A DNA stretch of 20,087 bases from Spirogloea muscicola. Taxonomy: Eukaryota; Streptophyta; Zygnematophyceae; Spirogloeales; Spirogloeaceae. The DNA lies in NCBI GenBank assembly GCA_009602725.1, contig WELB01000007.1:137332-157418 (forward strand). Reading direction: 5' to 3'. The position numbers and the translations under genes were made by a program. Position 1 is the stretch's first letter. Each line of letters opens with the position of its first letter. Below, piece by piece: positions 5,570 through 12,920 of this stretch. The notes under the pieces were generated by a model that saw nothing but the letters and a program-made list of their open reading frames with translations, ran no database searches and was not told the origin of the DNA.

Positions 5570-6370
5570 GAGTGGCGCCGCCAAGGGCTGGCTGGCGACG
5601 GCCGCCGCCGCCGGCGCTCAAACGTTTCTCGCCGCCATCATCCCGCGCCGCTCAGCGGGCCGCTCGGCAGGCCAGCCCGGCGCCGGCCGCCGCGACGGGC
5701 TCGCTCGCTGGTGAAGGACCGCCGCCGCCGNGGGGGGGGAAGGACAAGACTCCCTCCGGGAGCAGAGGAGGGAGGGAGGGTGGGTGGGAGGTGGGCCCCC
5801 CCCTCCTCCCTCCGTCCCCCGTGGCTTGCCACGTCGGCAAGTGCTCCTGAGTGGCACCACAACGTCAGCCTGAACGGGTACAGCACGGACGCAAAACGCC
5901 ACGGTGTCCGCCACAAGGCAGAACAATGTCCAGGTGGCAGTACACGTGGCAGGGGCAGTCCTCCACGTATGCACGGAGCCGACGTGGCGGCCCGCCCAGT
6001 GGCGCCACTGGGGGTGGGGTTGCTCCCCCCAGGCTGGCACCCCCCGGGGCGGGTGGGGCCCGGAAGCGTCGTGCCCGGGACGTGCGTCCCATGTCTCCCG
6101 CCGCGCCCGGCGTTTCTGGCCGCCAGCAAGGTCCCGACAGTTGGCACCGGCGCCGTCAAGGTGGACTCGTCCACTGGTCAGAGCGCGTGAAATGGACTCC
6201 GTGGACTGTTGCAGCATCGGCCGGGGGCCCTCCCGAGCGCGGCCCGAGCGCATCCTCCCCCCGGGCCCGCGGCGGTTCGGCTCCCCGGGGGGCCTACCAG
6301 TGGGGTCGCCCTGCTGTTGCACCGCCATGGCCTCAGCCGCGCCGAGGTTCATTCTGTTCCCTTCCACAGC
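5570..6370 (-). promoter_or_regulatory. GC-rich upstream region of the ARM gene with ACGT-core motifs
   Basis: Between the ARM start and the repeat zone lies about 800 bases of very GC-rich DNA. Its long open frames on both strands are typical artefacts of GC-rich sequence. ACGT cores occur at 5829-5837 (CCACGTCGG), 5860-5869 (CAACGTCAGC), 5942-5950 (ACACGTGGC, a consensus ABRE/G-box) and 5981-5988 (GACGTGGC), that is 260-420 bases upstream of the ARM ATG. An N at 5731 sits at a CCG/G-run boundary. No TATA box is obvious on the minus strand. Confidence 0.45.
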
Positions 6371-6449
6371 GCGGCCAGATTGACTGGTGGCTGTGAGAGG
6401 CCCAGCCCGAACAAGGTCTAGAGGAGCCGGATGGTGCAGAAAGCAAGGT
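6370..6449 (+). repeat. About 80-base direct repeat, copy 1
   Basis: It starts GCGCGGCCAGATTGACTGGT and ends CAGAAAGCAAGG. It matches 8019-8104 in direct orientation, including the palindromic core, an ACAAGGTC segment and a GGAGCCGGATGG/GGAGCCGAATGG segment. It marks the left edge of the repeat zone. Confidence 0.7.
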
Positions 6450-6654
6450 ACTTTCTGGTCCCACACTGTTGTTATTCCGTGCTTTTTGCACGAAATTTGC
6501 TTCTTATTTTCGGGCCTTTCCAGACGACGTACGTTCCTTTGTGCTTGCCTCTCACAGCCCTTGCCTTACTTTAGAAGAGCTGTTTCTTTCCGCTGCTGGC
6601 AGTCCAGCCCCCCCGTCAGCCACCTCCCTTGTGGGCTGGCCCTCATATAAACCT

Positions 6655-6864
6655 CTCCTTCGATCCTCTTTCCCACTCTCTCCCGTGTCAACTCCCGCCC
6701 TCCCATTTCCCCCTTCGCTCTTCGCCCTCCCAATCTCTCTCCGTACCGCTCTCTACCTTTTACTCCTCTCTCTCTCCCTCTCTCCCTCTCTCTCTTTCTT
6801 CCTCTCTCTCTCTCTCTCCGTCTCTCTCTCAAACCACCCCTCGCCCCCTCCCCCCCTTTCGCTT
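6655..6864 (+). repeat. CT-rich microsatellite/polypyrimidine tract
   Basis: About 200 bases of C and T with few purines, including long (CT)n runs near 6762-6830. It lies 10 bases after a TATA-like ATATAAA at about 6645-6651, so it could be a CT-rich leader on the plus strand. No convincing gene follows it. Confidence 0.8.
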
Positions 6865-6867
6865 GTA

Positions 6868-6945
6868 GGCCCCTCCAAACCTTTGTCAATTCTTTTTGGG
6901 CTGGCTTTTCGCAGCCCTTGCCCCCATTGGGAGTGCCACTTCTGT
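6868..6945 (+). repeat. About 78-base repeat unit, copy A
   Basis: This segment begins TAGGCCCCTCCAAACC and contains TTGTCAATTCTTTTTGGGC and GGGAGTGCCACTTCT. It matches copy B at about 7637-7713 in direct orientation and copy C at about 7865-7946 in inverted orientation, with only scattered differences. It contains one palindromic core. Confidence 0.8.
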
Positions 6946-7636
6946 CGGTCTGGCTCTCCTCAGCCACACGCTGAAGCTATGCCTGAAGCTGCCGACTCCG
7001 ACAACCTAAGCGAGCCACAGGGTGGGATGGCGGTAAGGCGGGGCCCACGGCAGCCTCCTCAGGCCGCGTGTGCAGCCGCCAGCCGCAATCACCTGAACGA
7101 CGCCCGCCCTCTAGACTTTGACCATTTCCATTCCATTTCTCCATTTGGGGCTGGCTTACACAGTTGTCGCCCCTTCAAATGAAAAGCTTTCCTTCATTTC
7201 AGGACTGACCTTTTCACTGGCCCTTCGAAGATTGTTCATTCTTATTCTGGGCCTGCTATCACAGTCATCGCCCTCTACTAGAAAAGGCATGTTTCCTTTG
7301 ACAAGCCTCGCGCCCTTTGGAAGAGCATACTCTTTCACTCTTCTTCTTCACTTTGTCCCGCAGGCGCGGCGAGCCGGCTGACTTCAACGCAGCTGGCTCG
7401 TGGGCTCAGGTATACCGGATGAGATTGTCAGTGTCCCTCCAGCGGTCCATGGCCCATGCTCTACATCTGCGTGCTGGCCGTGCTCTCGCTGCAGCCTCTG
7501 GCTTTCGGCAGGGGGATAGTTTTCCGGCAGCTAGTCTGTCGGAACTGCGGCTCCTCACTCGTAACTACTGAGTGATCCATCCTCCCCCTGTGCTGACATG
7601 ACATCTTCAAGCCCCTCTGTAGCTGCTAAACGCTTG

Positions 7637-7713
7637 TCGGCCCCTCCGAACCCTTGTCAATTCTTTTTGGGCTGGCTTATCACAGCCCTTGCCCCCATTT
7701 GGAGTGCCACTTC
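7637..7713 (+). repeat. About 78-base repeat unit, copy B
   Basis: This is a direct copy of 6868-6945. It shares GGCCCCTCC, TTGTCAATTCTTTTTGGGC, the core with CAGCCCTTGCCCCCAT, and GGAGTGCCACTTCT. It lies about 770 bases downstream of copy A and about 150 bases from the inverted copy C, so B and C could pair as the arms of a large hairpin. Confidence 0.8.
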
Positions 7714-7864
7714 TTTCTTCACAGCCATCGCCACCTTCTTAGTAAATCTCGAGTAGGCTTCTGGCAGGCGATTGCAGTGACCTCTCAGCCCTGAAGATCT
7801 CTTACAGGGGGCGCTGGCTGTGAAAGGCCAGCACAAGGGAGAGTAGATACTGTCCAGAGAGGCC

Positions 7865-7946
7865 GGAAAGAAGAAGTGGCACTCCCAATGGGGGCAAGGG
7901 CTGCGAAAAGCCAGCCCAAAAAGAATTGACAAAGGTTTGGAAAGAG
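7865..7946 (-). repeat. About 78-base repeat unit, inverted copy C
   Basis: This is the reverse complement of copies A and B, seen as AGAAGTGGCACTCCCAATGG, then GGCAAGGGCTGCGAAAAGCC, then AAAAAGAATTGACAAAGG. It resembles copy A (TTTTCGCAGCC) slightly more than copy B (TTATCACAGCC). Confidence 0.8.
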
Positions 7947-8018
7947 GGAGTAGCTCCTCCAGAGGAAGAAAACAGCTCTTAGACAGCAATGGCTGTGAGA
8001 GGCCAGCCCAAAAGAAAA

Positions 8019-8104
8019 GCGCGGCCGAATTGACTGGTGGCTGGGAGAAGCCAGCCCAAAAGGAATGGACAAGGTCAAGTGGAGCCGAATGGCGCAGAAA
8101 GCAG
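8019..8104 (+). repeat. About 80-base direct repeat, copy 2
   Basis: It starts GCGCGGCCGAATTGACTGGT and ends CAGAAAGCAGG. It is a direct copy of 6370-6449 with small indels, about 1.65 kb downstream of it. The inverted 78-base unit C lies just before it. Confidence 0.7.
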
Positions 8105-8358
8105 GGGACTAAGTGCTAAGACGACATGGAGGCTCTCAGTAACCTCTAGTCAGCAAGTGCAGGTCAGAATAGCTAGAGGGCGGGAAAAGGTCGCCCTGAC
8201 GAAACCCGGAGGCAGCCGCCAGGGCGCGGCCTGCACGTAGTTGGACGGCAAACGCAAGAGACTGCTGGAGGGAAGGCATGGACAAGTTCTGAAAGGGCCA
8301 GCCCTCCAAAGGGGGCTGTAAAGAGAAGCAGCTTCAGTGAAGAGAGCGAGGCCAGTTT

Positions 8359-8398
8359 TTGGGCTGGCTTTGCCAGCCCCTCTTCTCTATGGGCGAGC
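8359..8398 (+). repeat. 40-base unit with perfect hairpin core, copy 1
   Basis: GGGCTGGC (8361-8368), loop TTT, GCCAGCCC (8372-8379) is a perfect 8-bp stem with a 3-base loop. With its CTCTTCTCTATGGGCGAGC flank it is a near-identical inverted copy of 9779-9819, with one extra base in the latter. Confidence 0.8.
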
Positions 8399-9778
8399 AC
8401 TTTCTTCTTTCTTCTGTAGAAAGCCAGCCAACCAAGAGAATGAACAAGGCTGCAACGGGCCAACCCACAAAAGAATGTCGAGGTCCACGATAGGCTGAAA
8501 GAGAATCAACGGAAGCCTCTTCCAGTTGAGGGCGATGGCTGTGATTGGCCAGCCCAGACAAAAGAAATCAGGGGCCAAATTTTCAAGGGGCCAGGAAAAG
8601 CGCTGAAGCACAAAGAGAAACTAGACGCACCTGCGCAAGTGGTTACCAACGGGCGGCAGGGTGATGGGTCTCTGTAGCCGGTTGGGATGTCGGCTCGAGT
8701 GGGGGGAGCAGGGCTGCGCTACAGTTGGCTTGCCTACGCTGTCTTTACTGTGTCCCCCTCGCATGGACTGTCAGCGGTCCCTGATGGCGAGTACGGCTTC
8801 CCTACATCGAACTCATCGTTGCGCGTTGAAAAGCTACCTACAGCTTACAAACAGTAGCTAGGCCAGCAACAGGCAGGAAGCCGCTGTGCAAGGTATATAC
8901 TCAAACAACTTGCACGAGTGAAGCCCAAGCGTGCCATTTAAGACCTTGTTCATTTCTTATGGGCTACCCTCTCACAGCCATTGCCGTACACTGAACGAGC
9001 TGTTTCTCTTATCATTCCCGGCTCTCACAGCCACGGCCTCTGGCAGCCCAAATTGTGGGGATTGCCTAGTAGTTCCTCGCCTCCTACTGGAGGAAAGAAG
9101 GTCTACCAATAGAGCGCGATGGCTGGAAAAGGCCAGCCCAAAGTATCCAATAACAAGCGAGTCTTTTCTGAAGGAGGGGGCGCTGGCTGTGAAAGGCCAG
9201 CCCAAAGAAGAGTGGCCAGCCCAGAAGCCCAACACTGGAAGAGCTTTGTGTAATTTATATTATTTCGGCCCTTTCAGGACCGTGTTCAATCGCTTGGGCT
9301 GGCCTCTTTCAGCCATAGCCGTACTATGGAAAGGATGCTTGTGCTATGTTCTAGGGCTGGCCTTTCACAGCCTCGCCCTTTTTGGGAAGAGCTTACTTCT
9401 GTCTTGTTTTGCAGCTGCTTTGACCCGCACTGAGCTACCCAATGCTGCCACAGTCGTTCAAAGACGAGCTCTCAACAGTATACTAAGGTGTTGGCGGCTG
9501 CATATTGAGTAGATATTCTTGGCCCGGCCATATCTGACGAAGAGGTGCGCCGCCAGCATATAGCCATGCATAGAGCATGCAAGGAGAAGCACACGCCCGT
9601 CAAAACAGAAGGCGCGCGGTGCACATGGACTCAAAAGCGTGGCTGAATTAAGCCAACTGACTGTTCAGGCAAAAGCTAGCGCAAGAGTGGGGCTACATAC
9701 ATCGGAGCAATATGCTAAGGTGGCTAAGGTGACAAATATGAGACAAGACCAGCGGCCAGGGGGCGTTGCAAAGAAAGA

Positions 9779-9819
9779 GCTCGCCCATAGAGAAGAGAGG
9801 GCTGGCAAAGCCAGCCCAA
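9779..9819 (-). repeat. 40-base unit with perfect hairpin core, inverted copy 2
   Basis: GCTCGCCCATAGAGAAGAG is followed by GGGCTGGC (9799-9806), loop AAA, GCCAGCCC (9810-9817). It is the inverted copy of 8359-8398, 1.4 kb away. It is also the last strong copy of the repeat core before the amine oxidase gene. Confidence 0.8.
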
Positions 9820-9830
9820 AAAGAATGGAC

Positions 9831-10175
9831 AATGTCCAAAGCCAAAGAAAGAAGTACCGAAAAAGGACTACACTACACAAAACTCTGCGAAACACGAGAC
9901 GATGCAGAGGGAAGCTCAGTACCCGCGAGTGAGCACCGTCAGGTCTGAGCAGCTCGCTGCAGGTCCACCGGAACCGCACTGGTCGCTATTAGTGTACGGA
10001 AGTGTGTCGTAGCCACAGGAATCCTTTCGGCGCGAGTCAGCGTCACCGTGACGCCGGAGTCAGCGTCAGGCCAAATGCCCCAACCCCTGCCTTCCCCTAG
10101 AGGAGGAGGCCGCGGCTCCCGCCGCGAAGCCCGCCGCAGATCGCGGCGGGCCGCGTGGCGGGAGTTCCGGCGGCC
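9831..10175 (+). promoter_or_regulatory. Upstream region of the amine oxidase gene with paired TGACG sites
   Basis: The 12-base sequence GAGTCAGCGTCA occurs twice in direct orientation, at 10034-10045 and 10057-10068. Between them lies the imperfect palindrome GCGTCACCGTGACGC. TGACG/CGTCA cores are binding sites for TGA-type bZIP factors in plants (the as-1 pattern). Their position about 110-140 bases before the ATG fits a promoter element. No TATA box was identified. Confidence 0.45.
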
Positions 10176-12920
10176 ATGGCCCGCCGCCCCCGCCACGCGG
10201 ACGCCGTCGTCATCGGTGCCGGCCTTGCGGGCCTCCAGGCGCGCACNGCGGCGCAGACGCTGCGGCGCGCCGGGCTGGACGTGGTGGTCGTGGAGGCGGC
10301 CGACGCCGCGGGCGGCCGCGTCCGGCAGCTTCACGGCCTCGCCGCCTGGCCCATCGAGGTGAGGAGAAGCCCCGGGGACTCGGGCCTCGGCGGCGGCGAC
10401 GGCGGCGGCGCCGGCGGCGGTCTAGGCGGAGCGAGGGCACTGACGGCAGGTCCTGCGGGGGTCTTCATGTACCGGGAGCTCAGCTGGGCGCCGAGTTCCT
10501 CCACGGCGACCGCGGGTCCTCCGCCCACCGCCTGGCCGTTGCCATGGGCTGCCGTCTGCGCCAGCGGCGCTTCCATATCCCATCGCCGCCGCCGCCGCCG
10601 CCGCTGCCGCCGCCGCAGGCTGCGGCACCCTCGGCCGGGAGAGGGAGCCAATGAGCCCGCTGCCGCGCTCGCCCTTGACTTACTCTGGCAGCACCCGACC
10701 GCTACTTCCTTGGCGCCGAGCGCCGCCTGCTGACCGCCGCCGAGGCTGAGCGCCACGAGGGCCTCCGCAGTGTCCACGCCCTCTTTGGCGGCCTGGCCGA
10801 GGAGGCCCTGCCGCCGGTTGGGGCAGACGTATCCATGGAGGAGTACCTACGCGGCCGAGCCATGAGCAGCACTCTCCTGCAACTTGCCGAGTGTGAGTCT
10901 GAGAGCTGCATGCGGTGCCAGCCCATTACCAAGCTTTCTGCCTGCCATTGCCGGCCAGGCACCCTGCTGGGCCGCGCCAGCGGCGCTCGGGCATGCCTTG
11001 TCAGGAGTACGCACTGCAGCCGCCCCCAAACCTCGGCAGCGATGGCTGCAATGCGAATCCTGACCGGAGTACTGCGGCCCTGACCTTGACGATCATCCCA
11101 TCAATGAGTGGCGCAGCCATCTATGCCAACGACTTTGGGTGCTCCCTCGCCCACTTGGGGCTGGCGGAGTGCATCGACGAGGCTAGTCAGTGGACTTACG
11201 GCGACTCCTACTTCCTCCTTGATCGCTCTCTGCTAGCAGTGGTCGACCACCTCTTGCACGGCCTCGAGGTCTTCCCTGCCCATTGCCTACCGTTCCTGTG
11301 TCCTTGTTGAGCGAGGCTGTTTGTGTGGGCTTGACAAGCCAGCCATCTGTCTTAAGTACTGCACTAATTACTGGAATCGTTCAACTGGTATCGTTCAAGC
11401 ACGAGCACATCCTTCATCGCTAACTTCTGTGATTTACTATCACAAATTCCTGGTCAAGGCTGAAGCTCAGGGCTCTTAGAAGTCGTGCACTTGGTAACTC
11501 CTATATAGGCAATCACTTCGGAGAGCATTCTGTGTTTTAGCTGACATGCCCCGGCTGTCCATCTTCGTGCACTGATCACCACGAGCACCAGCTTGCTGCA
11601 GGTGTCTTTAAGCTGGCCCGTCGCCTCCATCTGCTACGCTAGCGGCGGTGCGGTCCAGCTCCAAAGCCAGCACGGGGAGGTTTTGCATGCCGACGCGGCC
11701 GTTATCACAGTGCCGCTGGTATCGACAACCGCACGTTGTAGCCAACTTCCGTCCTGCAGGGGTCCTGCATCCATAGTGTCCTGCATCTTGTTTGTCATGA
11801 TTGAGCTTCTCCAATGTGCTCTTTTTGCATTGCTGATGGTGCCTGACATAGTTGCTGAGCGGTCCTGCTCTTGCTGTCCCCAAAACCTGCATGTGACCCG
11901 AGGCCTGCCTTGAAAAGCCTGCAAAGCGTGATGCACATTGCCTTGTGGACTGCAGACCATCTTGAAGGATTGCGATATCGCTTTCACGCCCAGCCTTCCG
12001 GATCGTAAGCTGAAAGCCATTCAGGCCATCAGCATGTCCACCGCAATCAAGGTACAGACAATGGTTGCACATTGCCGGCTACTTCTGAGTCTTTTGATCT
12101 GCATGGGTGAGTTGATTGAGGTCGCGGCAATACCCCTCCATGGAGCAGGGGTTGCGGGGGGCTGCTTGCGCTGATCTTAAATGTCAAGTAACCATTGCAG
12201 GTGGTGCTTTCATTTTCTCAAAGATTCTGGCCAGAGGACTTTTTTGACGTGGTCTGCAGTGAGGCATTCCTGCCGGAAATGTGGACGAGCGAGTATCCGC
12301 CACTGGCCTTGGAAGACACTGCTGACCTTGAGGGCGTCAGGCCTTCACAGGCCTGCAAGACGTTGCCACCTGGGCAAGCTGTTGTGATTGGATTTGTGGC
12401 TGGAGAAGCCGCGGCAGCACTTACCAAACTCCCTCAAGCCGAGATTGTTGCAAAATCCCTTAGCCAGTTGAATGACATATTTTTAACAGCTGCCCAAAAA
12501 GATCCAAGCGAACAGGCATTGATTCGCAGCAGCATGTCGTGGTCAGCATTGGCTGCTGATGAGGAGCCTTGCTGCAGTGCTGCTATTGTGAGCAGCGATC
12601 TGGCGCAAGATCCCTGCTCCGGCATCTGGTTGCTCTCGCCGGCGGCCTCATGTCTCCATGGCAGCATCATGCGGTCGGCCTTCGTCGGCGGGTTCGTCTG
12701 CGACTGGTCAAAGGTGCCTTTCGTTAGAGGTGCCTACTCGCACCCGAGTATTGGGGCACTTGGAGAGCGAGCAGTCCTAGCAGAGCCGGTTGGCAAGTCT
12801 CTATTCTTTGCGGGTGAGGCGACGCACCCAGGGGTGAACCCCTGCCTGCAGGCAGCCTTGGACACTGGGACGCGAGCTGCTCACGAGCTCTTAGAAGCTC
12901 GAGGTCTAGCATGCAGATAG
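10176..12920 (+). CDS. FAD-dependent amine oxidase (polyamine oxidase-like), seven exons
   Basis: Exons are 10176-10358, 10484-10553, 10692-10892, 11117-11268, 11602-11718, 11956-12051 and 12201-12920, giving about 512 residues. The family oxidises amines or polyamines with FAD, releasing H2O2. The N-terminal Rossmann motif AVVIGAGLAGL (residues 10-20) and VVVVEAADAAGGRV are present. LGAEFLHG follows the first junction, then IYANDFG...LGL, VPL|TILKDCDI, IKVVLSFSQRFWP with the usual Lys, WSKVPFVRGAYSHPS, and the C-terminal FAD segment LFFAGEATHPGVNPCLQAAL. Start codon context is GGCCATGG. Weak points are the donors at 10554 (GTCTGC) and 11269 (GTCTTC), the N at 10246 inside the Rossmann fold, and an insert of about 60 residues before the VGGFVCDW segment. 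No signal peptide is seen. The exact substrate cannot be told. The last 40 coding bases overlap the coiled-coil gene on the other strand. Confidence 0.9.
10584..10616 (+). repeat. (CCG)n microsatellite in amine oxidase intron 2
   Basis: Eleven CCG-type triplets with one interruption, inside the proposed intron 10554-10691. The run ends in CCGCAG and could act as an alternative acceptor, but the acceptor CTCTGGCAG at 10691 gives the frame that matches the family. Confidence 0.7.

Follow-up and report, generated by a model that had tools for sequence, protein, structure and literature searches.

Among the non-long-terminal-repeat retrotransposons (long interspersed nuclear elements, LINEs), R2 elements are confined to 28S ribosomal DNA (rDNA). 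Dualen encodes two endonucleases, an APE and a restriction-like endonuclease (RLE), and both Dualen and RandI of Chlamydomonas are LINEs of the green lineage. Utopia is described with one to three N-terminal zinc fingers, a reverse transcriptase, one further zinc finger and an RLE, and HERO as comprising many non-specific families (PMC4640811). BLAG designates non-site-specific, genome-dispersed R2-like elements of the German cockroach (PMC7650587), Zepp and Zepp-like elements are centromeric LINEs of the L1 clade in green algae (PMC8226300), and short interspersed nuclear elements (SINEs) that carry a RandI tail terminate in (CTTT)n or (ATT)n (PMC3747384). Here, we analyzed a stretch of 20,087 bases from the zygnematophycean Spirogloea muscicola (assembly GCA_009602725.1, contig WELB01000007.1, positions 137,332–157,418; hereafter “the window”), in which a gene-free interval is filled with short palindromic repeats in both orientations. 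With a probability of roughly 0.94, this zone is a graveyard of hairpin-ended LINE tails, i.e., nested, 5′-truncated copies of R2-like LINEs.

An initial annotation, made from the letters of the sequence alone, had presented positions 6370–9830 as an undescribed-looking repeat zone built on a palindromic core. Exact cores (GGCTGGC, 4–9 nt, CAGCC) occur in the window at 12 distinct places, every one of them within the zone; the corresponding script tally is 28 rows, since nested and both-strand matches are tallied separately, and when 100 Markov shuffles were tallied alike, the mean was 0.01 and the maximum 1. With up to two substitutions allowed, the zone holds 42 rows versus 5.1 in the shuffles (maximum 12). 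A whole-unit nhmmer profile, built from sampled copies including the window’s own, detected 21 units at E < 1, of which 18 reach E ≤ 0.02; they all lie within 6368–9840. The repeat core is thus real rather than a product of chance, and the zone is indeed confined, although its limits shift to 6365–9963 and its unit, first put at about 60 bases, measures about 75–90 nt. DNA coverage of the window was defined by blast matches at E ≤ 1e-5 to other loci fetched from the same genome, and outside 6365–9963 there was no such match.

The idea of a feature specific to this locus did not survive a search of the genome (153 Mb, 471 contigs), in which the exact 18-nt core occurs 20,684 times (10,374 + 10,310), compared to 18 times (8 + 10) for the pattern read backwards as a control. 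Since the core repeat is dispersed genome-wide, it is no property of the window locus. Our sample of the window and the fetched loci (202 kb of non-N sequence) yielded 270 unit matches, and nine arbitrarily placed loci contained about one unit per 1.2–1.5 kb, corresponding to ~105,000–126,000 units in the genome if these loci (round coordinates, 61 kb non-N) are roughly extrapolated.

The unit is identical with the 3′ end of a set of LINEs. These are several related families with one long protein and a common 3′ end of ~80 nt, in which a GGCTG/CAGCC hairpin precedes a CTT-rich end. Unit types differ on both sides of the hairpin, and all have GGGCTGGC..CAGCC and the CTT-rich right end in common. 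Right ends cluster 25–34 nt beyond the core while left ends drop off gradually, and similarities of 436 bp and 432 bp between copies end within 3 nt of a unit’s right end. A LINE C-terminal peptide (..LLTRxY or LLSRGY, then stop) recurs in 65 tblastn pieces across the sample, two of them in the window, and units follow it. The coding remnants within the zone, at 7353–7568 (+), 8273–8139 (−) and, weakly, 9963–9919 (−), run counter to the earlier statement that no transposon protein was visible. A further repeat in L007, L008 and L009 has the same core hairpin in other flanks (..TGTATGCATCTGGCTGGC..CAGCCGA.., four occurrences), and is possibly the tail of another LINE family.

The genome also holds full-length elements. 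Searching it with a 370-residue stretch from L010 returned 21,610 first-look candidates, of which 111 were scored; 14 of these had open frames of 1,324–1,403 amino acids, and many of those scored were 100% identical. Two full copies were fetched (L031 and L033 at C338; L032 at C20), each with one 1,350-codon open frame, ~1,299 codons from the first ATG, and a 3′ untranslated region (UTR) of ~125 nt in which the hairpin core starts ~78 nt past the stop. Three more LINE 3′ ends were read, of which the one at C165 is without the last ~19 nt. The C338 and C20 copies have upstream sequence in common and therefore provide no independent check on the 5′ end; in three other copies, however, the common body starts within 10 nt of one place, which gives an element of ~4.1 kb. 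No direct terminal repeat was noticed when five 3′ ends and five 5′ sides were read. As side observations, the C338 and C20 copies also have 397 bp with older tails in common and are 99.98% identical over 5,451 bp, and the outer flanks at C338 are partly inverted repeats of each other.

The encoded protein resembles that of R2. Its open reading frame (ORF) contains a reverse transcriptase (RVT_1, PF00078, E 8.4e-16, residues 627–855), and its only PDB matches at E ≤ 0.1 were three R2 retrotransposon proteins (E 7e-07 to 1e-06). By eye, we recognized two C2H2-like motifs near the N-terminus and, near the C-terminus, a putative CxC..HxxxxC knuckle as well as RxD-x14-D (CPTC..HRRHC, CQLC..HQRTC and CECG..HVLRC stand in the frame; zf-C2H2_4 reached E 0.097, below the cut-off). 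RxD-x14-D, which we take to be a restriction-like endonuclease motif, is conserved together with a downstream K across aligned family members, and on this basis the C-terminus probably holds an RLE; neither Pfam nor NCBIfam reported an endonuclease domain in the 1,350-codon frame at E ≤ 0.1.

One long ORF, putative N-terminal zinc-finger-like motifs (by eye), a central reverse transcriptase (from PDB matches), the putative C-terminal knuckle with RxD-x14-D (by eye) and 5′-truncated copies liken this LINE to R2 and R2-like elements. Unlike R2, it lies on many contigs (no search was aimed at rDNA copies), its C-terminal domain goes unrecognized by profile searches, and its target duplication is ~8 bp. 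Among the Utopia, NeSL and HERO clades, Utopia is alike by its described architecture and HERO by its non-specific families, but neither a U2 small nuclear RNA target nor a microsatellite target was noticed at our six resolved insertion sites, all inside repeats. Dualen and RandI belong to the green lineage as this LINE does, whereas Pfam and NCBIfam found no APE domain in its ORF. BLAG, by its description, is R2-related and dispersed in the same way, but in an animal, and Zepp likewise forms LINE clusters in green algae, while the LINE described here is dispersed and R2-like instead. Literature searches found no paper on this LINE family, which does not show that the family is unpublished.

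Copies are graded in length as expected for 5′ truncation. Counting near-identical copies (up to three mismatches) by distance from the 3′ end, we found 1,893 at 45–85 nt, a number that may also take in sister families with more than three mismatches in their coding part. The number falls to 990 at ~230 nt and then to 83 at ~2 kb; controls were at 0. Insertions into other repeats were resolved against empty homologues, so that sites were found only inside repeats, and in six cases, all at different sites, the insert is flanked by a target duplication. The duplications are exact over 8 bp for inserts of 52 nt (L007), 167 nt (L022), 751 nt (L010) and a full-length ~4.1 kb (C195), and match at 7 of 8 positions for inserts of 196 nt (L007) and 174 nt (L008). 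Five of them were clean by eye among 44 candidate junctions (overlapping and false ones included) and one was found by hand; those in L010 and L008 are less secure, as they sit in the hairpin core of the interrupted tail. The 52-nt insert (L007, 3552–3605) stands alone between its 8-bp duplications and has five matching empty sites, hence a bare hairpin tail can be a whole insertion. Nesting is likewise observed, i.e., copies interrupt older copies.

These patterns suggest a course of events in which the LINE protein would recognize the hairpin end of its own RNA, nick chromosomal DNA and start target-primed reverse transcription at the 3′ end of the RNA. Reverse transcription would mostly halt early and leave thousands of tails, some only ~50 nt, in either orientation and between ~8-bp duplications, and new copies would insert into older ones. 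With new copies placed inside older ones, a gene-free stretch would fill with tails, and the mixed orientation of the units would follow from insertion on either strand. The suggestion of a hot spot of nested small foldback elements was right in essence, in that the zone consists of a single type of mobile element inserted repeatedly into itself; the foldback part found no support.

Beyond the possible sister families among the shortest tails, several observations weigh against a LINE graveyard. Similarities of 516, 427, 403 and 395 bp start, rather than end, at a unit’s right end; our unproven reading is that in these cases another LINE copy lies behind a tail. On their 5′ side, the C338 and C20 copies carry their 3′ end once more, as an inverted copy of 946 bp. 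A match of the whole zone to one element family, which the initial annotation had named as contradicting its own view, is largely borne out, the units and coding remnants being from one related LINE set, although only 48% of bases 6370–9830 have a DNA-level match to the sampled loci. The LINE C-terminal domain had no significant Pfam or PDB match, and the endonuclease assignment therefore stands at the level of motifs. Structure tests were also uneven: five folded tails had z scores of −3.3, −3.6, −1.75, −0.98 and 0.20, i.e., two of the five were no stabler than shuffles and one only marginally, and the inner hairpin stem is nearly invariant among units. An outer stem around the hairpin, suggested by two of the five foldings, found no support in a pairing test over 176 units, in which self-pairing came to −7.08 kcal/mol, cross-family pairing to −6.88 and the reversed control to −7.34; the family-level permutation value was 0.94, on the wrong side, in what is a crude test with 136 of the 176 units in one family. 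Some LINEs require their 3′ UTR (PMC3747384), and on this analogy recognition of the RNA hairpin end by the LINE protein seems most likely.

Units are often arranged head to tail. We tested abutment for 239 of the 270 unit matches (E < 0.05) against 2,000 simulations with uniform placement within each locus, and observed 32 same-strand tail-to-head abutments versus 3.3 expected (sd 1.8, maximum 11 in the 2,000 simulations), while the other two arrangements were not clearly enriched (3 versus 1.2 and 3 versus 1.3). Clustering alone might lift such counts, but would lift all three arrangements. In 30 of the 32 pairs the upstream unit extends to model position 74 or beyond and the downstream units restart at 3–48, hence the pairs are not split matches. 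Abutting partners are alike in only two of 32 cases, with a mean similarity of 0.47 versus 0.52 for random pairs, which disfavors tandem duplication. The window contains a four-link chain (8089–7798, −). At C195, the insert between GAAACAAA and GAAACAAA consists of a 17-nt foreign tail followed directly by a full-length LINE and two extra bases. A single 8-bp duplication surrounds both, with no second one between them. The 17 nt are a B-type tail end, matching an L006 copy at 16 of 17 positions (other B copies agree only to GCGCTT).

For the R2 reverse transcriptase, addition of up to five nucleotides followed by a jump to another template has been reported in vitro (PMC4117753), and an R2-style jump would yield the C195 order of tail, then full LINE. 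We infer that template jumping may account for both the head-to-tail chains and the foreign tail at C195. More tentatively, and at somewhat less than even odds, serial end-to-end jumping in vivo would string tails of unlike LINE families together within single insertions: the reverse transcriptase would hop along a series of short RNA pieces, each ending in a hairpin and derived from unlike families, and leave chimeric concatemers that fill gene-free stretches. Chains could instead form without template jumping if the endonuclease favored the 3′ ends of existing tails as cutting sites, a route we consider rather unlikely but the strongest of the alternatives. It would fit the same excess of abutments, as well as a full-length copy at C254 that lies directly behind a tail with no duplication visible around the pair; it is at odds with the foreign tail and full LINE enclosed in one duplication at C195. 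The unlikeness of most abutting tails also speaks against it, although neither model uniquely predicts this.

A second alternative concerns the bare units, which could be a separate SINE-like element with its own ~75-nt RNA, mobilized by the LINE protein. The stand-alone 52-nt insert and the excess of tails over longer copies are what such an element would produce. Yet 5′ ends are ragged rather than fixed, the six resolved inserts range through 52, 167, 174, 196 and 751 nt to ~4.1 kb, and nothing like a 5′ module of their own was noticed (no search for a promoter was made), and we regard this possibility as improbable, roughly one chance in eight, compared with early-halting reverse transcription of LINEs.

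That the zone acts as a chromatin boundary or gives rise to double-stranded RNA, both proposed at the outset, is very improbable: inverted arms of 70–76 nt with 91–100% complementarity do occur in the window, but with a unit that frequent in nine arbitrary loci, nothing singles out the window locus. A locally amplified tandem satellite, for which the ~75-nt spacing of some units (7798–8089) could be cited, can practically be dismissed, as neighbors are of different types and the same units are dispersed genome-wide. Equally negligible is a miniature inverted-repeat or foldback DNA transposon whose terminal repeat would be the palindrome, despite frequent inverted pairs and the 946-bp inverted 3′-end copy at the 5′ side of two full copies, since a unit on its own can be an insertion with a target duplication, and units sit behind LINE reading frames.

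Read as LINE tails, a supposedly undescribed repeat zone receives a plain mechanism, and is mostly ordinary, the work of an R2-like LINE set of known kind, with the chains as a possible new twist. This is a green-lineage genome in which such a set left ~10^5 hairpin tails, and near-identical long copies remain. If template jumping makes the chains, the genome would be a large natural record of a reaction described for R2 in vitro. A caution also follows: palindromic short repeat zones of mixed orientation in algae can be mere LINE 3′ ends.

Within the zone, the leftmost feature is a B-type tail unit (..ACCAGTCAATCTGGCCGCGCT) at 6368–6431 (−; nhmmer E 3.1e-08, as for all unit values below; type by eye), followed by a unit at 6512–6593 (+, 2.1e-08) and an A-type unit at 6867–6946 (+, 1.4e-16), with 92% identity between 6860–6946 and 7631–7717. 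The interval between the tails at 6512–6593 and 6867–6946 contains a long CT-rich simple-sequence stretch (6590–6853). Two decayed units lie at 7108–7181 (+, 0.019, weak) and 7219–7299 (+, 0.0011). Next, a LINE copy that starts near 7351 (DNA coverage 7351–7740) carries the C-terminal 72 codons of the ORF, then a stop, at 7353–7568 (+; the tblastn query, found by the full-length ORF at 3e-16), upstream of its A-type 3′ UTR end with hairpin at 7636–7718 (+, 1.3e-15). The four-link chain runs on the minus strand from its first link at 8016–8089 (B type, 3.7e-10) through 7943–8017 (4.4e-09) and 7868–7942 (A type, 9.4e-16; 7872–7941 is 100% complementary to 6874–6943) to the last link at 7798–7869 (8.1e-07, gap −2 to its neighbor). 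Upstream of its B-type tail lies a LINE ORF C-terminus at 8139–8273 (−; tblastn 6e-08 with the A-type C-terminus, 73% identity over 45 amino acids).

Further right are a D-type unit (GGGCTGGCTTTGCCAGCCC) at 8357–8413 (+, 1.1e-09), a unit at 8507–8593 (−, 6.5e-12) and an E-like one at 8936–9010 (+, 2.6e-08). Units at 9088–9157 (−, 8.3e-08) and 9160–9218 (−, 2.4e-08) abut with a gap of 2, and those at 9266–9334 (+, 1.1e-06) and 9346–9402 (+, 3.8e-07) are separated by 11. The series ends with a D-type unit at 9768–9840 (−, 2.5e-10), and upstream of it, at 9919–9963 (−), with what are probably the last LINE ORF codons (..LTRGY, stop), read by eye, with a weak tblastn match to the ORF (12 residues, E 3.8) and within DNA coverage 9754–9963.

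The zone had been placed between two genes, which is shown for the right side only. There, an FAD amine oxidase gene in at least two pieces was identified by Pfam (10155–12920), and repeat coverage stops at 9963, about 190 nt upstream of its first Pfam-matching ORF; on the left, Pfam scans of three and then five ORFs gave no match. Scans of the window reported no Rfam family at gathering scores and no tRNA.

Three observations were made elsewhere in the fetched loci. The top-scoring RVT_1 matches were dropped as a partner for the units, as the fetched copy L030 has no unit by profile at E ≤ 10; this copy (C33:903500–911000) appears by eye Ty3/gypsy-like, with gag-like and pol frames and a chromodomain-like end, and five more places tie for the top RVT_1 score. 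A LINE copy in L028 is interrupted at 5984–7491 by a 1,506-bp insertion that looks like a DNA transposon, with TGTCGTGC..GCACGACA at its ends and AGCT as its 4-bp duplication. Finally, L040 holds a nuclear Rubisco small subunit gene in two pieces whose scores hint at a streptophyte alga, with 120 bits to PDB chains that are presumably from land plants and 88 bits to what we take to be those of Chlamydomonas.

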